From Pseudomonadales bacterium (GTDB lineage Bacteria; Pseudomonadota; Gammaproteobacteria; Pseudomonadales; Azotimanducaceae), in contig SLTB01000024.1 of the NCBI GenBank assembly GCA_007130155.1, forward strand, positions 1 through 43,693: a stretch of 43,693 bases of DNA, written 5' to 3'. The position numbers and the translations under genes were made by a program. Within the stretch, counting starts at the first letter, position 1. Each line of letters opens with the position of its first letter. The notes below the pieces were generated by a model, which searched no databases, had not been told where the DNA came from, and worked only from the letters and a program-made list of their open reading frames with translations. Below are positions 1,238-37,893 of this stretch, piece after piece.

Positions 1238-1277
1238 GGGAGGCTCTGAACCGGGTTCACCCCGCTCAGAGCCTCCC
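1238..1277. repeat. Perfect 12-bp inverted repeat (hairpin) abutting MITE-like copy A
   Basis: GGGAGGCTCTGA at 1238-1249 and its exact complement TCAGAGCCTCCC at 1266-1277 flank a 16-base loop. No T-run follows on either side, so a classical intrinsic terminator is not supported. It ends one base before repeat copy A. Confidence 0.6.
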
Positions 1278-1278
1278 C

Positions 1279-1519
1279 AGCCCGCAAATCTCACCGATTC
1301 ACAGCTGCGGACGCGGAGCTACCGGCAAATCCTGCCGGTCCGCCGCTGCGGTTGCGCTGTTGCGCACCATCCATGGTGCGCATGGTGCGCGCCCTGCGGG
1401 CGCATTGCGTGCGACGCGATTCGCGCCCGGCGAATCGCTCGGTCCGGGTGCTGTTGCGCGCCTTGTCTTTACCGGCATTTCCACGCCCTCGCTTCGCGCA
1501 TCGGTGAGACATGCGGGCT
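1279..1519 (-). repeat. MITE-like intergenic element, copy A (reverse orientation)
   Basis: This is one of four related 240-270 bp sequences in the window. The others are at 5533-5799, 7819-8075 and 29967-30236. Its ends are inverted repeats: AGCCCGCAAATCTCACCGAT at the left and the matching ATCGGTGAGAC-ATGCGGGCT at the right. Copy A lies in the opposite orientation to the others. Internally it shares the GATTCGC-cgggc-GCGAATC hairpin and the GTGCGC-rich block. There is no credible coding capacity. It fills most of the divergent gap between the DUF1704 gene and the acyl-CoA dehydrogenase; I see no other gene in that gap (1155-1620). Confidence 0.85.
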
Positions 1520-1620
1520 AGCAGTTGATCCTGCAGGGCTGCGCACCTGGACGGCGCTCGAGAGCAGAATGGTATGCTCCGCCACCTCGTCGCGGGCCAT
1601 TGCAAGAAGTGGAGGAGCAC

Positions 1621-3107: not shown

Positions 3108-5534
3108 GTGCCCAGGCCTCTCGATCTCCTGCCCGTCTGGCTGCGCGAACGCAGCCTCGCCCTGAACGATCATGGCACGAAGCCCGAGCGCCCCATGGTG
3201 CTCTACTGGATGCGCGTCGCCATGCGCAGCGAAGAGAATCCCGCCCTGGAAGCCGCGCTGACGCTGGCCCACGCTCTCCGCCGGCCGCTGCTGGTCTATC
3301 AGGGCCTTTCGGAACGCTATCCCTTCGCCTCGGACCGCCACCATCGATTCATTCTCGAAGGCGCTCGGGATGTCGCATCGGCGCTGGCAGAGCGCGGCGT
3401 GGCCTATGCCTTTCACCTCGAAAGACCGGGCCATCGAGCTGATCATCTCCTGACGCTGGCAGCCCGGAGCGCGGCCGTGGTCACGGAGATCTTCCCCTGG
3501 AAGCCGCTGGCGGACTGGACGTCGACCTTGGCACGAAGCGCTGACTGCACCGTGATGGCCGTGGACAGCAGTTGCCTCGTTCCCATGCCGCTGGTCGACG
3601 CCAGAAGCTGCGACCGAGCCTTCCGCTTCCGGGATGCCACCGCCAATCTGCGCCGCAAGGCACTCCAAGCGCCGAGCATCGCCCCTCTGCCAGCGGTACC
3701 CGGAGCACTGCCGAAGCTGCCCTTTGAACCGGTGAGCCTCGAGCAGGCGGATCTGGCTATGCTGATCGCCAGCTGCGAGATCGATCACACAGTAGCCCCT
3801 GTGCCTCATACGCCGGGCGGCAGCCGTGCCGCAGAGAAGCGATGGCAGTCGTTCAGGGATCAGCGCCTCGTCCGCTACCACCGCCAGCGCAACGATCCCC
3901 TCGCAGATGGCGTCAGCCGGCTCTCGGCTTATCTACACTATGGGCAGATCTCCCCTTTCACGGTGGCCAGAGACGCCGTCGCCACAGGCGATGCAGGCGC
4001 CGAAAAGTTCCTCGATGAACTCCTGGTCTGGCGCGAACTCGCCTGGGCGTTCTGCTTTCATCACCCGCAGCACGAAAAGCTGTCAGCCCTGCCCGAATGG
4101 GCACGGGCCACGCTCGAGACCCATCGCCAGGACCGCCGTTCGGCGCTCCACGACTGGGAAACCCTGGCCCGCGGGCGCAGCGGCGACGGGCTCTGGGACG
4201 CGGCCCAGCGCTCCCTGCTCATCCATGGCGAACTGCACAACAATGTGCGCATGACCTGGGGCAAGGCACTGCTCAAGTGGACGCCCGATGCCAGGACCGC
4301 CCTGACCCGTCTGATCGACCTCAACCACCGCTATGCCCTCGACGGCCGCGACCCCAACTCCTACGCCGGCATCCTCTGGTGCCTCGGGCTCTTCGACCGT
4401 CCTTTCCAACCGGAACAGGCGATCCTTGGCAGCGTGCGCGATCGTGACACCCAGGACCACGCCATGCGCCTGGACGTCACCGCCTATGGGGCACATACGC
4501 AACGCAGTGCCCTCGACGCACCTCCTTCCGTGGCCATGGTCGGCGCCGGCGTCGGTGGTCTCTTTGCGGCTCGGAGCCTCATGGATCATGGCTTGGCCAT
4601 CCAACTCATCGACAAGGGCCGCCAACCCGGCGGTCGCTGTGCCACCCGAACCTCCCGCCACGGGCATGGAGAGGGATTCGACCACGGTGTCCCGGCCTTC
4701 ACGCTGACGGACCGACGTCTGACACCCTATGCCGATGCCTGGGAGGATCGGGGCCTGATTCGCCGCTGGCTGCCACGGGAGGGGGATGCGCTTTGGGTCG
4801 CAGTACCTGACGCCAATGCCCTGGCACGGCACCTCGCTGCCGATGTCGCGCCTCGCCTGACTTGCAAGGCCACGCGAGTGACTCGCGTGGAAGGTCAGTG
4901 GCAGGTGTTTGCCGGCGCGGAGCGGGTGGCGGGTCCCTGCGAGGCGCTGCTGCTGAATATGCCGCCTGCTCAGGCCGCCCGCCTGCTGGCCACCACTGAG
5001 CAGCCTGATCTCATGGCCATCGCCGACGCCCTGGCCGCCATACCGATGGCGCCGGTCTGGACCGCCATGCTGAAGACGGAGGCCAGCTGCAACCCGGGCT
5101 TCGATCTGCTGCGACCAGTGACCGGCCCCATCGCCCTGGCCTGCCGCGAAGCGGCCAAGCCGGGCCGATCCCATCAGGGCTGCTTCACCTTTCATGCCAC
5201 AGCGGCATTCAGCGAAGAACATCTCGATGCCAGCCCCGAACGCGTGGCGAGCCTGCTGGCGCCTGCAGTGAGCCAGCTGCTTGGAATATCCATCCTCCCC
5301 CACGACCTGCGTTGCCATCGCTGGCGCTACGCTCACAGCACGGGGCCCGCCGACGATCACTTCAGCCAACCCGGAATCGGCCTGTATTTCTGCGGCGATT
5401 GGCTCTCTGCCGCAGGCGGCATCGAAGGCGCGCTGCTGTCAGGCGCCGCGGCAGCCGGGCGGCTGCTCGGCGCCCCGCCGCAGGGCCCAGCCCCAGCGAG
5501 GGGGCACCCACCTGAGCAGGCCTCACTGTTCTAG
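3108..5534 (+). CDS. Class II DNA photolyase fused to renalase-like FAD/NAD(P) oxidoreductase
   Basis: An 808-residue two-domain flavoprotein. Residues 1 to about 465 are a photolyase of the class II (CPD) type: N-terminal VLYWM and ENPAL, then YLHYGQISP, FLDELLVWRELAWAF and LDGRDPNSYAGILW, which line the FAD and DNA-lesion site in the family. From about residue 473 a second domain opens with the dinucleotide motif VAMVGAGVGGLFAA, followed by PGGRCATR and FDHG, as in the renalase/COG3380 amine-oxidase-like family. It closes with YFCGDWLSAAGGIEGALLSG, the FAD-binding C-terminal motif. The start is GTG, with AAGGAAG 8 bases upstream. Family knowledge predicts light-driven repair of pyrimidine dimers; the role of the second domain is unknown, and reduction of the photolyase flavin is only a guess. 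The stop codon overlaps the first bases of repeat copy B. Confidence 0.9.
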   Translation: MPRPLDLLPVWLRERSLALNDHGTKPERPMVLYWMRVAMRSEENPALEAALTLAHALRRPLLVYQGLSERYPFASDRHHRFILEGARDVASALAERGVAYAFHLERPGHRADHLLTLAARSAAVVTEIFPWKPLADWTSTLARSADCTVMAVDSSCLVPMPLVDARSCDRAFRFRDATANLRRKALQAPSIAPLPAVPGALPKLPFEPVSLEQADLAMLIASCEIDHTVAPVPHTPGGSRAAEKRWQSFRDQRLVRYHRQRNDPLADGVSRLSAYLHYGQISPFTVARDAVATGDAGAEKFLDELLVWRELAWAFCFHHPQHEKLSALPEWARATLETHRQDRRSALHDWETLARGRSGDGLWDAAQRSLLIHGELHNNVRMTWGKALLKWTPDARTALTRLIDLNHRYALDGRDPNSYAGILWCLGLFDRPFQPEQAILGSVRDRDTQDHAMRLDVTAYGAHTQRSALDAPPSVAMVGAGVGGLFAARSLMDHGLAIQLIDKGRQPGGRCATRTSRHGHGEGFDHGVPAFTLTDRRLTPYADAWEDRGLIRRWLPREGDALWVAVPDANALARHLAADVAPRLTCKATRVTRVEGQWQVFAGAERVAGPCEALLLNMPPAQAARLLATTEQPDLMAIADALAAIPMAPVWTAMLKTEASCNPGFDLLRPVTGPIALACREAAKPGRSHQGCFTFHATAAFSEEHLDASPERVASLLAPAVSQLLGISILPHDLRCHRWRYAHSTGPADDHFSQPGIGLYFCGDWLSAAGGIEGALLSGAAAAGRLLGAPPQGPAPARGHPPEQASLF

Positions 5535-5799
5535 CCCGCATATCTCACCGATGCGCGAAGCGAGGGCGTGGAGATGTCGGAAAAGACAAGGCGCGCGCCA
5601 GTTCGGGCGCGCAGGCGCACTTGACAGTACGTCGACTGATTCGCCGGGAGCGAATCGGGTCGCATGCAGTGCGCCCGCAGGGTGCGCGCCAGGGAAGGCG
5701 CGCAACAGCACCCGGACCGAGCGCAACCGCACCGGCGGACCGGCAGGATTTGCCGGCATATCCGCGTCCGCAGCCGTGAATCGGTGAGATTTGCGGGCC
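5533..5799 (+). repeat. MITE-like intergenic element, copy B
   Basis: It begins AGCCCGCATATCTCACCGAT and ends ATCGGTGAGATTTGCGGGC, so its ends are inverted repeats matching copies A, C and D. It lies so close to the photolyase that its first two bases complete that gene's TAG stop codon. At its right end it abuts and overlaps by a few bases the second element type (5796-5968). The left flank is CTAG and the right flank CCAG. Confidence 0.87.
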
Positions 5800-5968
5800 A
5801 GGAGTCTGCGCGGTAGGACTGAGCGCATGCGAGACGTTCCCCATTTGAGGCCGATTCGACGCCCGATTGAGGAGCGTAGTGCTGCCAAGTGACGAAACGG
5901 GGCGATCGTAGCGAGCCGAAGTGGGGGCGCCGCAGCGCGTTCACATTCTACCGCGCAGACTCCTGGCC
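5796..5968 (+). repeat. Second MITE-like element with perfect 20-bp terminal inverted repeats, copy 1
   Basis: GGCCAGGAGTCTGCGCGGTA at the left end is exactly complementary to TACCGCGCAGACTCCTGGCC at the right end, with about 130 bp between. The interior (GCATGCGAGACG, GAGGCC-ATTC-ACGCC, GGCGATC, GCCGC-GCG-TTCAC) is shared in the same order with a diverged copy at 14905-15120. It has no coding capacity. Confidence 0.85.
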
Positions 5969-7789: not shown

Positions 7790-7818
7790 GGGTTCAGCGC
7801 TCCGAGGACGAACGGCTT

Positions 7819-8075
7819 AGCCCGCATATCTCCCCGATGCGCGAAGCGAGGGCGTGGAGGAGATGTCGGACAAGACAAGGCGCGCGACAGTTCGGGCGCG
7901 CAGGCGTACTTGACAGTACGTCGACCGATTCGCCGGGAGCGAATCGCGTCGCATGCAGTGCGCCCGCAGGGTGCGCAGCATGGATGGCGCGCAACAGCGC
8001 AACCGCACCGGCGGACCGGCAGGATTCGCCGGCATATCCGCGTCCGCAGCCGTGAATCGGTGAGATTTGCGGGTT
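7819..8075 (+). repeat. MITE-like intergenic element, copy C
   Basis: It opens AGCCCGCATATCTCCCCGAT and ends ATCGGTGAGATTTGCGGGTT. The flanks are TTAG on the left and TTAG on the right, the best candidate for a 4-bp target duplication among the four copies. It fills most of the 347-base gap between the starts of thpR and the end of the SirB2 gene; nothing else recognisable is in that gap. Confidence 0.87.
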
Positions 8076-8136
8076 AGAACCGGCCACATTCGTCGGGCCC
8101 TATAAGGTACCAGCGACCACCCTCGAGGATGGCGCG

Positions 8137-21977: not shown

Positions 21978-22844
21978 GTGAGCAGTTCACCGACCCCCTC
22001 TTCCCTGCGTGAACGCGTGGGCGCCTGGATCGAAAGCACGCCGATCCAGAACCTGATCATCGCCATCATCATGTTCAACGCAATCACCCTGGGCCTGGAG
22101 ACCTCGAACTTCGTGCAGGCCCGCGCCGGCGGACTGCTGCTGTGGGTGGAGCAAATCGTGCTGACGATCTTCGTGATCGAGATCGCCATCAAACTCTATG
22201 CCTTCAGGCTGCGTTTCTTCACCAGCGGCTGGAACGTCTTCGACTTCGTCATCGTCGGTATCGCGCTGGTGCCCGCTTCCGGCCCATTGGCCATCCTCCG
22301 AGCGTTCCGCATACTCCGGATTCTGCGTCTGGTGACCAAGATCGCCCGCCTGCGGCACTTGGTAGAGTCGCTGATCCGCGCCCTGCCGAGCATTGGCTGG
22401 ATCGTGGTCCTGATGCTGATGGTGTTCTACATCTTCGCGGTCATGGGCACGAAGCTGTTCGGCGAGCAGTTCCCGGCGTACTTCGGCCATCTTGGCGCCA
22501 GCCTCTATTCCCTGTTCCAGGTCATGACCCTGGAAAGCTGGTCCCAAGGCATTTCACGGCCGATCATGGCCGAGATACCCTATGCCTGGATCTACTTCCT
22601 GACCTTCATCCTGATCACCGTATTCACGGTCCTGAACCTGTTTATCGGGATCATCGTCAATACGATGCAGGAGAAGCATTTCGAGGAGGAGGAGATGCGT
22701 CGCAGCCAGATGGAGGAGCGTGCTCACAGTGAACGCGAGGAGATGCTGCTCCTGCTGCGTGAAATGAGCGTCAAGGTCGATCGCCTCGAGGCCCAACTCG
22801 ACGGCACTGACGGACACGGTCAGACGTTGCCGGAGCGCGGCTGA
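21978..22844 (+). CDS. NaChBac-like voltage-gated cation (Na+) channel
   Basis: A 288-residue six-helix ion channel subunit, expected to work as a homotetramer in the inner membrane. Helices S1-S6 are visible. S4 is the voltage sensor, with Arg/Lys at every third place (RAFRILRILRLVTKIARLRHL, shown here as the segment near residues 110-130). The selectivity filter is TLESWS with Glu at about residue 186, the motif that makes bacterial channels Na+-selective. S6 (VFTVLNLFIGIIV) leads into a Glu/Arg-rich coiled coil, as in NaChBac relatives. The start is GTG. A TATAAT lies at 21935-21940 but has no good -35. It is divergent from the hsp20 operon. Confidence 0.92.
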   Translation: MSSSPTPSSLRERVGAWIESTPIQNLIIAIIMFNAITLGLETSNFVQARAGGLLLWVEQIVLTIFVIEIAIKLYAFRLRFFTSGWNVFDFVIVGIALVPASGPLAILRAFRILRILRLVTKIARLRHLVESLIRALPSIGWIVVLMLMVFYIFAVMGTKLFGEQFPAYFGHLGASLYSLFQVMTLESWSQGISRPIMAEIPYAWIYFLTFILITVFTVLNLFIGIIVNTMQEKHFEEEEMRRSQMEERAHSEREEMLLLLREMSVKVDRLEAQLDGTDGHGQTLPERG

Positions 22845-29955: not shown

Positions 29956-29966
29956 ACGCAAGCACT

Positions 29967-30236
29967 AGCCCGCATATCTCACCGATACGCGAAGCGAGGG
30001 CGCGGAGATGCCGGCAAAGACAAGGCGCGCGACAGTTCGGGCGCGAAGGCGTGCTTGACCGTACGTCGACCGATTCGCCGGGAGCGAATCGCGTCGCACG
30101 CAGTGCGCCCGCAGGGTGCGCACCATGCAGGGTGCGCACCATGCATGGTGCGCAACAGCGCAACCGCAGCGGCGGACCGGCAGGATTTCCCGCTAGCTCC
30201 GCGTCAGCAGCCGTGAATCGGTGAGATTTGCGGGTC
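29967..30236 (+). repeat. MITE-like intergenic element, copy D
   Basis: It begins AGCCCGCATATCTCACCGAT 12 bases after the acyl-CoA dehydrogenase stop, and ends ATCGGTGAGATTTGCGGGTC. The left flank is CTAG and the right TCAG. Its GTGCGCACCATGC block is duplicated relative to copies B and C. Confidence 0.87.
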
Positions 30237-30571
30237 AGGGGTGCTGGCCATGGCCCGCAACAGCCCGCCTGGCGAGCGATCATTGGGCAGAGCGCCTGAC
30301 GGCGCTGATCGCCCCCGATGGGGGCTCCCACAGGCGCCATGCCACTATCATGGGATCATTCCGCCAGCAGCAGAAAGCGTCATTCGTACTGAGGGCTCCC
30401 ACAGAGCCCTGCGTGGGTTCGCGTGTTTTCTCAGGGCTTGCGGGTTGTGCTGTGCGCGCGATCGCCCGCAATGCGGGCTCCCAAGAGGTCTTGCCACAGC
30501 CGTCGGATGACCCCTCTTCCTTCCACGGCATCGTGAACGAACGCTCGTGGCAAACTCCGACGACGGCAAGC
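30237..30571. other. Gene-free gap rich in REP-like hairpins
   Basis: This 335-base region between copy D and the end of the 2-hydroxyacid dehydrogenase holds no gene. It contains the REP-like double hairpin at 30291-30334, a hairpin AGGGCTC-ccaca-GAGCCCT at 30392-30410, and GATCGCCCGC-AAT-GCGGGCTCCCA at 30460-30483. Confidence 0.7.
30291..30334 (+). repeat. REP-like double hairpin (second copy)
   Basis: AGCGCC-TGAC-GGCGCT followed by GCCCCC-GAT-GGGGGC and TCCCACA. It differs from the element at 6076-6120 by only a couple of bases over 44. Confidence 0.8.
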
Positions 30572-34302: not shown

Positions 34303-34605
34303 GTGAGAAGGCTGTCGACACTGCTGCTGCTAGCCTCAGTGTCGGCAGTGGCCGATGCCGAGGGACCATCCCGGGGCGAAATCCTCGCCAGTGCCTGCAA
34401 CACCTGCCACGGCCTCGATGGACGTGGCAGCCCACCGCTACCGCCCTTGCGGGGACGCAACGACATCCGACAGCAGCTGCAAGCCTGGAAGATAGCCGCC
34501 GAGGCGACGGGCGACACCCACCTGATGATCCGCTTCGCCCGGGCCCTTTCGGACATGGACATCGATGATCTGGCCTCATTCTATGCCCGGCAGGACTCGC
34601 CATGA
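34303..34605 (+). CDS. Small monoheme cytochrome c, probably the FccA/SoxE-type partner
   Basis: A 100-residue exported class I cytochrome. The signal peptide MRRLSTLLLLASVSAVADA is followed by one heme site, CNTCH, with the distal Met expected near HLMIRF. The C-terminal helix is DIDDLASFYARQ. It lies between the molybdenum hydroxylase and a sulfide-dehydrogenase flavoprotein whose start overlaps its stop (ATGA). That makes it the likely cytochrome subunit of the flavocytochrome, and possibly also an acceptor for IorAB. The start is GTG. Confidence 0.82.
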   Translation: MRRLSTLLLLASVSAVADAEGPSRGEILASACNTCHGLDGRGSPPLPPLRGRNDIRQQLQAWKIAAEATGDTHLMIRFARALSDMDIDDLASFYARQDSP

Positions 34606-35885
34606 CGGAACTCCTGAAGGGCTTGGGGCGACGCCAGTTCCTCGCCGGCGGCATGCTGCTGCCCCTGGCTCTCGGCAGTCTTCGCGCAAGCGCGAAGACT
34701 GCGCCCCATGTGGTCATCGTTGGCGGTGGCTTCGCCGGCGCCACCGCTGCCCGCTATCTGGCACGCTGGCTGCCGGACGTTCACGTTTCTCTGGTACTGG
34801 GCCGGGATCGCTACTGGACCTGTCCCTTCAGCAATCTTGCGGTGATAGGCCTGCGCTCACTGGACAGCCTGGAAGTCCGCCGCGACCAACTCGCCAGCGG
34901 CAACATCACCCTCGTACCCCTGGAGGCTCGGGATTTCGACCCCCACCGGCGCACACTGCGTCTTGAGGGCGGTCGCACACTGAGCTTCGATCGGCTGATC
35001 CTCGCTCCAGGCATCGAAGTCATGCCCGAGGCCATCGATGGCCACGGGCAGGATGCCGTCGACACTTTCCCCCATGCCTGGCAGGCGGGACCCGCCACCG
35101 ACCATCTGGCACGACGACTTTCGGCCGTACCCGACGGCGGCCTGGTCATCATCAGCGTTCCCGAGGGCCCCTACCGCTGCCCACCCGGCCCCTACGAACG
35201 TGCCAGTCTCATGGCTTGGTGGCTGGCACGCCATCGGCCGCGGGCGAAGCTCATCATGCTCGATGCCAACGCAAGCTTTACCAAAGAGGCCCTGTTCAAG
35301 TCCCATTGGCGCGAGGCCCACCCCCAACGTCTGAGCTGGTTCGGTCGCAACGATGATGGCCAGCTACGCCGCGTGGATGCCAGGCGCGGCAGGGTTCACA
35401 CGGACTTCGAGGACTATCGGCCGGATCTCGCCTGCGTGATCCCGCCCCAGCGGGCCGCCGCCATTGCCCGCATCGCGGACCTCGACGGTGGGCGCGGCTG
35501 GTGTAGCGTGGATGCCCGGACTTTCGCCTCCACCGTGCACCCGAATGTGCATGTGATCGGCGATGCCGCCATCGCCAATCCCATGCCCAAATCCGCGTTT
35601 GCTGCCGCCAGTCAGGCCCGGATCTGCGCCGCCGCCATCGCCGCCGAATTCAGCGGCAGAGGGCCGCCAGACGCCCTGCTGACGAACACCTGCTACAGTC
35701 TGCTGACGCCAGAGAAAGCCATCGCCGTCACCGGTTCCTATCGTGGAACGCGGCACGGGATCCAAACCCTGCCCGGCAGCGGCGGAACCAGCCCGCTTCA
35801 GGCACCGTCATCTCTGCGCGAGACGGAAGCCGGCCATGCCCGCGGCTGGTATGCCAGTGCCCGGGCGGAAGCTTTCGGTGATTGA
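34602..35885 (+). CDS. Flavocytochrome c sulfide dehydrogenase flavoprotein (FccB/SoxF)
   Basis: A 427-residue exported flavoprotein oxidising sulfide, with electrons passed to the cytochrome subunit. GRRQFLAGGMLLPLALG is a Tat signal. The FAD motif is VVIVGGGFAGATAARYL; YRCPPGPYERA (Cys about 193) and NTCYSL (Cys about 364) are the two cysteines that form the redox-active disulfide in the family. VIGDAAIANPMPKSAFAA is the second FAD site. It overlaps the cytochrome gene by 4 bases and is followed after 1 base by soxX, so this is probably the SoxF/SoxE arm of the sox operon. Confidence 0.9.
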   Translation: MTELLKGLGRRQFLAGGMLLPLALGSLRASAKTAPHVVIVGGGFAGATAARYLARWLPDVHVSLVLGRDRYWTCPFSNLAVIGLRSLDSLEVRRDQLASGNITLVPLEARDFDPHRRTLRLEGGRTLSFDRLILAPGIEVMPEAIDGHGQDAVDTFPHAWQAGPATDHLARRLSAVPDGGLVIISVPEGPYRCPPGPYERASLMAWWLARHRPRAKLIMLDANASFTKEALFKSHWREAHPQRLSWFGRNDDGQLRRVDARRGRVHTDFEDYRPDLACVIPPQRAAAIARIADLDGGRGWCSVDARTFASTVHPNVHVIGDAAIANPMPKSAFAAASQARICAAAIAAEFSGRGPPDALLTNTCYSLLTPEKAIAVTGSYRGTRHGIQTLPGSGGTSPLQAPSSLRETEAGHARGWYASARAEAFGD

Positions 35886-35886
35886 G

Positions 35887-36354
35887 ATGAAGCGCATCCG
35901 GCTGGGCCGCACCCGGCACGGTGGCCTGCTGCTGTTGGCGCTGCTAGCCAGCGGCGCCGGTGCCGACTGTGCGACCTTCGAGATTGTCGGCGATGGCATC
36001 ACGCTGCCGCTGGGCGGCCAGACCGGAAACCCCGAAGCCGGGCGCCGGGTCGCCGCAGAACGGCAGCGTGGCGATTGCAGCATCTGCCACCAGTTGCCGT
36101 TGCCGAACGATCACTTCCACGGCAATGTAGGGCCGGATCTCACCGCGATCAGCACCCGTCTGACGCCTGCCCAGATTCGCCTGCGGGTCGCCGCCAACCG
36201 ACAAATGAATCCGGAGTCAGTGATGCCGGACTACTGCAGCAGCCGTGGCCGCCACGAGGTCGCGGGCCCCTACGCCGGCGAACCCATTTTGACGGATCAG
36301 GAGATCGAGGATGTCGTGGCCTGGCTGAGCAGTCTGGACGGCAGTGCGCCATGA
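35887..36354 (+). CDS. soxX: Sulfur-oxidation cytochrome SoxX
   Basis: A 155-residue monoheme cytochrome, partner of SoxA in the periplasmic complex that loads thiosulfate onto SoxY. The signal peptide ends near ASGAGADC; GDCSICHQLP holds the heme. GNVGPDLTAI and the C-terminal ILTDQEIEDVVAWLSSL are SoxX hallmarks, and SVMPDY supplies the Met ligand. ATG 35887 is one base after the FccB stop; an upstream ATG at 35836 is possible but gives a poor signal. The stop overlaps the soxY start by four bases. Confidence 0.9.
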   Translation: MKRIRLGRTRHGGLLLLALLASGAGADCATFEIVGDGITLPLGGQTGNPEAGRRVAAERQRGDCSICHQLPLPNDHFHGNVGPDLTAISTRLTPAQIRLRVAANRQMNPESVMPDYCSSRGRHEVAGPYAGEPILTDQEIEDVVAWLSSLDGSAP

Positions 36355-36809
36355 AACGTTACGGGCATTCAGGCCTGCCGCGCCGTGCCGTTATCCAAGG
36401 CATGGCCGCAAGCTTCACGCTGTCGCTGATGCCGCGGGCGTCAGCCGGACTCGAAGCCGCTCTGCAGGCGCGGTTTGGTGACCGCCGCCCGGACACAGGC
36501 GGGGTTGAACTCGAAGTCAGCAGTCTGGTGGAGAACGGCAACTCCGTGGCCGTCACCGTGAGGGCCGACCCTTCGCAGCCTAGCCCCTCCGCCCTGCACC
36601 TGTTCATGCCCCGAAACCCCGAACCCTGGGGAACCAGCTTCCACATCCAGCCGCCAGCGCTGGCTGAGTTCAGCACCCGCATCCGACTGTCAGGGTCCCA
36701 GGACCTGATGGCGCTGGCCGAATGGTCTGACGGCCGACTCGGCGCCACCGCGGTGTCCGTCATGGTCACACTCGGCGCCTGCGCCGACGATCTTTACGGC
36801 GAATTCTGA
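36351..36809 (+). CDS. soxY: SoxY sulfur-carrier protein with non-canonical C-terminal arm
   Basis: A 152-residue Tat-exported (RRAVIQG) carrier of sulfur intermediates. The fold segments GGVELEVSSLVENGNSVAV, MPRNPEPWGTSFHI and TRIRLSGSQDLMALAEWSDG match SoxY. Canonical SoxY ends in GGCGG, with the Cys on a free swinging arm. Here the end reads TLGACADDLYGEF: the Cys (about residue 144) is kept, but the flanking Gly are changed and eight residues follow it. No frameshift is needed to explain this. The gene overlaps soxX and lies 2 bases before soxZ. Confidence 0.88.
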   Translation: MKRYGHSGLPRRAVIQGMAASFTLSLMPRASAGLEAALQARFGDRRPDTGGVELEVSSLVENGNSVAVTVRADPSQPSPSALHLFMPRNPEPWGTSFHIQPPALAEFSTRIRLSGSQDLMALAEWSDGRLGATAVSVMVTLGACADDLYGEF

Positions 36810-36811
36810 TC

Positions 36812-37141
36812 ATGAGTCTGTCCGCCCGCGTTCGCATTCCCACTGAGGCCCGCGCCGGCGAGGTGATCGAGATTCGCACCCTGGTGAGTCATCCCATGGA
36901 AACCGGTTTCCGCGTCGACAGCTTCGGCCGGCGCGTGCCGCGCAAAATCCTCACCCGCTTCAGCTGCCACTACGATGGCCGCGAAATCGTCAGCATGGAC
37001 CTCCGCCCCGGCATCGCTGCCAACCCCTATGTGGCCTTCCGCTTCGTCGCCGACGTATCCGGCGCGATCGAACTGCGCTGGGAGGGCGATGAGGGCGAGG
37101 TCCTCATCGAGCGCAGCCACCTCGAGGTCATCAGAGCATGA
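36812..37141 (+). CDS. soxZ: SoxZ, partner of SoxY
   Basis: A 109-residue beta-sandwich protein forming the SoxYZ heterodimer in the periplasm. RVRIPTEARAGEVIEIRTLVSHPMETGF at the N-terminus and AANPYVAFRFVADVSGAIELRWEGDEG towards the end are diagnostic. As usual there is no signal peptide; SoxZ is exported together with SoxY through SoxY's Tat signal. It overlaps soxA by four bases (ATGA). Confidence 0.93.
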   Translation: MSLSARVRIPTEARAGEVIEIRTLVSHPMETGFRVDSFGRRVPRKILTRFSCHYDGREIVSMDLRPGIAANPYVAFRFVADVSGAIELRWEGDEGEVLIERSHLEVIRA

Positions 37142-37893
37142 AGTGCTGGCTCCTGCTCCTGCTCCTGGCCACATGCTGCGCCGGGGCAGACCAGCCCGAT
37201 CGCCGCTCCGGCTACAGCCTGCTGGGGCCCGATCTGAGAGCGCTGCAGGACGACGATTTCGCCAATCCAGGCATGCTGTGGGTGGACCGCGGTGAGCGGC
37301 TGTGGAACGCAGCCAGTGGCCCGAACCAACAGAGCTGCCGGGACTGCCATGGAGACCCCGTCAACCTGCGTGACCTCGCCAACCGGCTGCCACGCTTCGA
37401 TGCCACGACCAACCGCCTCGACAACCTGGACATGCTGATTCGCCAGTGCCGAACGCAGCGACAGCAGGCCGAGGCACTGACTCATGAAAGCGAGGATCTG
37501 CTGGCGCTGACGACCCTCGTCGCCCATCAATCCCGCGGGCTACCGCTCGAGGTGGTCGTCGATGGGCCCGCAAGCACAGCCTTCGAACAGGGGCGAGCCA
37601 GTTTCGAGCGCCGCCGCGGCCAGCTCGATCTGTCCTGCGCCGATTGCCACGAAAAGCTGCGGGGCGCGCGGCTGCGCGGCGAGACCATCAGTGCCGGCAT
37701 GGTCAACGGCTTTCCACTGTACCGCCTGACATGGGAAGGTCTCGGTTCCAGGCAGCGCATGATCCGCTGGTGCAACGAGGCGGTCCGTGCCAAGCCCATG
37801 GACCCGGAAAGCCAACGGGCGCTGGCGCTGGAACTCTATCTCGCCTGGCGCTCCCGCGGGCTAGCCCTCGAGGCACCCGCAGTGCGCAGATGA
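37138..37893 (+). CDS. soxA: Sulfur-oxidation cytochrome SoxA, diheme
   Basis: A 251-residue exported cytochrome, catalytic subunit of SoxAX. The signal peptide is MKCWLLLLLLATCCAGA. Two heme sites, SCRDCH and SCADCH, are present, so it is the diheme form. RWCNEAVRA near the C-terminus supplies the Cys that ligates the catalytic heme as a persulfide in the family. Segments DRGERLWNAASG and GNPVNLRDLAN-like GDPVNLRDLANRLP are typical. It is the last gene of the operon: a 58-base gap precedes galM, and there is no soxB. Confidence 0.92.
   Translation: MKCWLLLLLLATCCAGADQPDRRSGYSLLGPDLRALQDDDFANPGMLWVDRGERLWNAASGPNQQSCRDCHGDPVNLRDLANRLPRFDATTNRLDNLDMLIRQCRTQRQQAEALTHESEDLLALTTLVAHQSRGLPLEVVVDGPASTAFEQGRASFERRRGQLDLSCADCHEKLRGARLRGETISAGMVNGFPLYRLTWEGLGSRQRMIRWCNEAVRAKPMDPESQRALALELYLAWRSRGLALEAPAVRR

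Follow-up and report, generated by a model that had tools for sequence, protein, structure and literature searches.

Photolyases are usually viewed as stand-alone enzymes that are reduced by unspecified cellular donors. The reduced flavin of renalases reacts with O2. Motifs that bind the sliding clamp are found in UmuC (QLNLF), Pol II (QLGLF) and Pol III alpha (QADMF). In the class II photolyase of M. mazei, MmCPDII, Tyr345 is an electron donor in electron transfer and the Trp triad has the order W381-W360-W388 (PMC5885780); N403 binds FAD and D404 is its partner (PMC9649867). The NAD(P)H isomers oxidised by characterised renalases are the 1,2 and 1,6 forms; 1,4-NAD(P)H is not a substrate (PMC7660482). 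The bacterial clamp-binding consensus, QL[S/D]LF (PMC3716654, PMC9690074), has been revised to Q-aliphatic-x-[LM]-[FL] (PMC13254535), and the motif is usually C-terminal and unstructured.

Here we analyse a gene in which a class II photolyase is continued by a renalase-like domain, in a stretch of 43,693 nucleotides (the window) from a Pseudomonadales bacterium. No description of a photolyase-renalase fusion was found in the literature searched for renalase or COG3380 jointly with photolyase, in agreement with an earlier note on this DNA, which knew of no characterised enzyme of such an arrangement. The features of the gene are as follows.

3108..5534, + strand: fused gene for a class II photolyase-renalase-like protein, 808 aa, GTG start, TAG stop, single open frame
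3165..4487, + strand: class II CPD photolyase domain, residues 20-460 (TIGR00591, PDB 2xry/8oet, Foldseek)
4194..4280, + strand: Trp triad codons W363 (4194-4196), W384 (4257-4259) and W391 (4278-4280), equivalent to MmCPDII W360/W381/W388
4503..4529, + strand: short inter-domain junction, residues 466-474, with conserved spacing and high pLDDT
4530..5468, + strand: renalase-fold FAD domain, residues 475-787 (PDB 4zcc, profile, Foldseek 4zcd)
5517..5531, + strand: QASLF, candidate beta-sliding-clamp (DnaN) motif, residues 804-808, in a disordered tail (motif enrichment, pLDDT)

Reading frame and domains of the fused gene

The frame has no internal stops across its 808 codons. Orthologues of the window gene are of equal length and share its start; four congeners keep both the reading frame and the fusion at 67-85% identity, as does another genus at 49%, and a fifth congener has its copy split by a contig end, with the remaining half on a second contig. 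This conservation rules out a sequencing artefact. Within the DNA of the domain junction, no AGGA/GGAG-type ribosome-binding site was seen just 5' of the in-frame GTG4530 or ATG4536, so internal initiation is not suggested; a frameshift, an assembly error or two separate genes can likewise be rejected given the conserved frame, the fixed linker and the missing internal site. A scan for sigma-70-type promoters gave no match. Judged from its sequence, the window protein is one polypeptide with a complete class II CPD photolyase and a complete renalase-fold FAD domain, and the fusion recognised in the earlier note is thus genuine.

The photolyase half (residues 20-460) matches TIGR00591 at 5e-97 in an HMM search, and class I models at 5e-16 or weaker. 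Its score of 326 bits lies below the strict TIGR00591 cut-off of 550 bits, a value reached by no photolyase in our samples of 299 and 119 genomes. The same residues match MmCPDII (2xry/8oet) at 2e-59, Foldseek places the half on 2xry at a TM of 0.85, and the top 44 structural matches are all class II. The photolyase half therefore belongs to class II and not class I, by sequence as well as by fold. With MmCPDII numbering checked via identity at known residues, equivalents of E301, W305, W360, R378, W381, W388, N403, W421, D428, R429 and R441 are present, and among the mapped triad, FAD and lesion positions only Y345, Y380 and D404 are not retained. Across the aligned fusions the triad is nearly invariant (W363 73/73, W384 73/73, W391 71/73), which rules out the renalase domain as a replacement for a lost Trp triad.

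The fused photolyases share the fold, the FAD site, the triad and the N403/R378/E301/W421/D428/R441 equivalents with MmCPDII and the rice enzyme (3umv), and differ from these in the added renalase domain and at a set of positions. The Y345 position, Tyr in 69/69 unfused class II enzymes, is occupied in fusions by Leu, Tyr or His, and by His348 in the window protein, and D404 is replaced by His in 71/74. Further changes specific to the fusion clade relative to unfused class II are N361 to D, K384 to A and Y380 to T or S; W431 to F, M443 to R and Y376 to N occur in nearly all fusions. Several of the clade-specific changes fall along the electron path, which suggests a new donor without proving one, and they could also be mere divergence. 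The PhrSph98-type bifunctional CPD/(6-4) photolyases are likewise class II-like and bacterial but, unlike the fusions, retain the D404 equivalent as D413 (PMC9649867). Polymorphobacter is among the genera listed with PhrSph98 homologues, and in our tree, which does not include PhrSph98 itself, a Polymorphobacter sequence (L112) and L121 branch outside the fused clade, which thus does not group with these homologues.

The renalase half (residues 475-787) matches Pseudomonas renalase 4zcc at 1e-35 and, by Foldseek, 4zcd at a TM of 0.87. A profile of the fused-family renalase domains finds 4zcc at 2.7e-97; for human renalase 3qj4 the value is 1.5e-28, and both matches score far better than amine oxidases and LSD1 (other amine-oxidase folds, about 1e-15). 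The likeness to bacterial (Pseudomonas, PDB 4zcc/4zcd/5krq) and human renalase extends over the whole domain in sequence and fold and includes the FAD motifs, GxGxxG (GAGVGG), GGR and the C-terminal GD, which are invariant in 73/73 aligned fusions. FAD binding is therefore expected, and the earlier observation that both domains keep their nucleotide-binding motifs holds across the family. What sets the fused domain apart from these renalases is its position behind a photolyase and, in the window lineage, a changed substrate pocket. Here DHGAQYFTxRD reads DHGVPAFTLTD, GxPGMNAL has become VPDANAL and PLxWxARxxSKPGR has become PIALACREAAKPGR. About half of the fusions, or more, have the Pseudomonas pocket motifs (GAQYFTxRD, PLDWLARNRSKPGR), with exact DHGAQYFT in 34/73 and single changes in others, so that most fusions appear by their sequences to retain the renalase pocket consensus. 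The Pirellula form (L036) is one that has the renalase motif. In the window lineage, the altered motifs could reflect a shift or a loss of substrate specificity, with FAD binding kept.

R454 and G479 are spaced 24-25 residues apart in 72/73 fusions. AlphaFold models of two distant fusion members both reach a pTM of 0.93, with high confidence across the junction (pLDDT above 90 in the window protein) and disorder confined to the last 9-13 residues. The two domains are thus predicted to pack in a fixed manner; we take pTM as evidence of packing since a loose orientation of the 465- and 325-residue domains would score much lower.

Distribution, origin and gene neighbourhood

A search through 85,462 species genomes yielded 116 relatives, and the 80 best were retained. 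Every one of the 80 continues into the renalase domain; four are truncated within it at contig ends, and in no case does the frame stop after the photolyase. The fused loci come from Planctomycetota (including Rhodopirellula baltica and the complete genomes CP036526 and CP036272), Gemmatimonadota, Myxococcota and Alpha- and Gammaproteobacteria, which rules out a fusion peculiar to the genus of the window. Sampled frequencies were about 10/119 in the class of R. baltica, about 7/101 in Gemmatimonadota, about 9/96 in Myxococcota and 2/274 in Gammaproteobacteria, the window's own genome counted. No fusion was found in the plasmid records searched. In most of the fusion genomes examined there is an additional photolyase, either an unfused class II enzyme or, in Proteobacteria, one of class I. 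R. baltica, for instance, has both a fused and an unfused class II enzyme. Given the many genomes with unfused class II, CPD repair by the fusion may be dispensable there. The window's own genome has a separate class I-type photolyase (L002, contig C295:16703-17191, 479-aa frame).

The fused photolyase domains group together with support of 100 (99 under a mixture model), to the exclusion of 39 unfused class II enzymes; the renalase domains of the fusions likewise make up one clade, with support of 90. The presence of both domains in single matching clades indicates one ancestral fusion that has since been passed on as a unit, with vertical and probably also horizontal spread. The earlier note had named a majority of close homologues with the domains split into unlinked genes as a finding that would speak against it; the close homologues are fused, with a single exception. 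In G869 (L220) the photolyase falls inside the fused clade, a weak placement on a long branch, with a TAA just after the linker and a renalase-like gene on a different contig. The renalase domain can thus be lost, and this is the one secondary loss found. Overall the photolyase-renalase fusion is real, old and widespread.

In the window the fused gene is flanked by an acyl-CoA dehydrogenase gene and a cation-efflux gene, with no light-stress neighbours, so its context is uninformative. Fused genes elsewhere repeatedly adjoin genes for photolyase-related DPRP (10 loci), SDR (6) and class I photolyase (5). Stand-alone renalase and class I photolyase genes also occur together, in an apparent operon with a 4-bp overlap in L015 65-2475 (G046) and in a second apparent operon in L026 1444-4005 (G042) that lies beside an ECF sigma/ChrR-cupin pair, the arrangement of photo-oxidative-stress regulators. 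Such linkage was seen in 5/39 genomes, with a rough chance probability of 1.6e-6 under a distance criterion picked after the data were seen. These arrangements support a functional link between photolyase and renalase in light stress, fused or not.

The window contains other features. A MITE-like repeat of ~270 bp with imperfect terminal inverted repeats of ~50 bp is present in at least 40 copies in the window's genome, four of which lie at 5531-5801, 1270-1521 (reverse), 7818-8077 and 29965-30245; the first starts directly at the stop codon of the photolyase-renalase gene. Genes of sulfur oxidation, encoding a flavocytochrome c sulfide dehydrogenase, a cytochrome c, SoxY and a SoxA/TsdA-type cytochrome, occupy 34602-37893, and 21978-22844 encodes a voltage-gated-type ion channel of 288 aa (Ion_trans, 8e-46).

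The C-terminal tail

The window protein ends in PPEQASLF, its congeners in QASLF, QTSLF, QVILF or QVDLF and the protein of a distant genus in NQGSLF; the linker ahead of this motif is otherwise unalignable. Residues 800-808 have pLDDT below 50, and the tail is disordered in both models. The QASLF of the window, being C-terminal and of low pLDDT, agrees with the revised clamp-binding consensus. This motif is a new point, absent from the earlier note.

Q..LF lies within 20 aa of the C-terminus in 23/82 fusions and in 11/71 class II photolyases that are unfused, as against 0/33 class I photolyases, 0/13 renalases and 0/493 other ORF tails from the same loci, the last being taken with a simple longest-ORF caller so that some are perhaps not real genes. 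The enrichment gives Fisher values of 1.8e-21 for fusions and 6e-11 for unfused class II, on counts that are phylogenetically non-independent. LF within the last five residues is found in 28/82 fusions and 27/71 unfused class II, compared with 0/33 class I, 0/13 renalases and 7/493 other ORFs. Chance is ruled out as the source of the motif by the control tails (0/493), shuffles and class I tails. The looser tail motif must have changed at least 10-11 times on the trees, which means that it is not one inherited accident. A tail in every member is ruled out as well, given its absence from gammaproteobacterial unfused class II enzymes and from the gammaproteobacterial fusion G684; ~60-70% of fusions, G684 included, have no evident clamp motif.

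Like the clamp binders UmuC, Pol II and Pol III alpha, these fusions have a C-terminal pentapeptide of the QxSLF/QLDLF type in a disordered tail; unlike for established beta-clamp binders, DnaN binding of the fusion is a prediction from the motif. The tail is probably a clamp tether. No report of a photolyase as a sliding-clamp partner was found in the literature searched.

Clamp-type motifs are also frequent at the very C-termini of unfused class II photolyases from Planctomycetia, among them RQGSLFD, RQGALFD and EQGKLFDA (L144, L154, L158, L168, L170-L173, L184, L190 and L198). Many more end in LF or LFD without the Q.

Possible roles of the fusion protein

We tentatively favour, at somewhat less than an even chance, a clamp-tethered photolyase that carries a light-stress flavin oxidoreductase, that is, a two-flavin repair enzyme for sunlight stress. 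We infer its activities, its clamp binding and its role in light stress as follows. The photolyase half would split cyclobutane dimers with light via FADH-, which its own Trp triad would photoreduce. The renalase half would act as a second flavin oxidoreductase, with off-pathway dihydronicotinamides of the 1,2-/1,6-NAD(P)H class, or something closely analogous, as its substrate. Through its C-terminal motif the protein would be tethered to the sliding clamp, which would bring repair to newly replicated or stalled template DNA. Renalase-type activity in the window lineage is the least certain of these steps, because the substrate-pocket motif has drifted there.

The earlier note had suggested that an NAD(P)H-linked domain could reduce the photolyase flavin in the dark. 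This idea is weakened by the retention of the Trp triad and by the inactivity of renalases on 1,4-NAD(P)H (PMC7660482), such that a member of this family would not be expected to carry out dark reduction driven simply by NAD(P)H. An intramolecular electron path may still connect the two flavins. In such a relay a renalase flavin reduced by dihydronicotinamides would feed the photolyase FAD or the Trp radical chain, and yield FADH- without external reductants. The nearly invariant junction length, the fixed packing in two models (pTM 0.93) and the clade-specific changes along the electron path at Y345, D404, N361, K384 and Y380 are consistent with a relay, which we still regard as doubtful: the triad is intact, renalases make no use of 1,4-NAD(P)H, their reduced flavin reacts with O2 and the clade-specific residues may be simple divergence.

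It is unlikely that the renalase half acts on some other substrate with no relation to nicotinamides, such as an amine, a quinone or a photoproduct, with the fusion reflecting only co-induction by light. Pocket drift in the window lineage would fit this, and co-regulation alone would account for the operon link of renalase genes to class I photolyase and ECF/ChrR genes, but the fused profile prefers renalase 4zcc (2.7e-97) to other amine-oxidase folds (about 1e-15), and a fixed linker and packing exceed what co-expression needs. Least probable, and in our judgement very doubtful, is a purely structural FAD in a fold that orients the photolyase and holds the clamp-binding tail off the DNA-binding face: the FAD motifs are invariant with variable pocket motifs, the window lineage included, and the tail does come after the renalase domain, but most fusions appear to retain the renalase consensus (DHGAQYFT alone in 34/73) and unfused class II photolyases have the tail without any scaffold.

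A bolder version of the favoured clamp-tethered enzyme, which we consider a long shot, would be self-reducing: the renalase flavin would feed the photolyase from non-standard dihydronicotinamides through the remodelled path, with the tail docked on the clamp at the fork. If true, the enzyme would be without precedent among photolyases in two respects, its built-in redox module and its link to the replisome through a dedicated motif.

With a conserved, multi-phylum fusion to a flavin oxidoreductase, the source of the electrons for the repair flavin becomes directly testable. The clamp-type tails in fusions and in unfused Planctomycetia class II enzymes point to a possible coupling of light repair to replication. 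The fusion also gives bacterial renalases, whose role is poorly understood, a physiological setting in light stress, and it may connect the repair of sunlight damage with redox metabolism and the replication fork.
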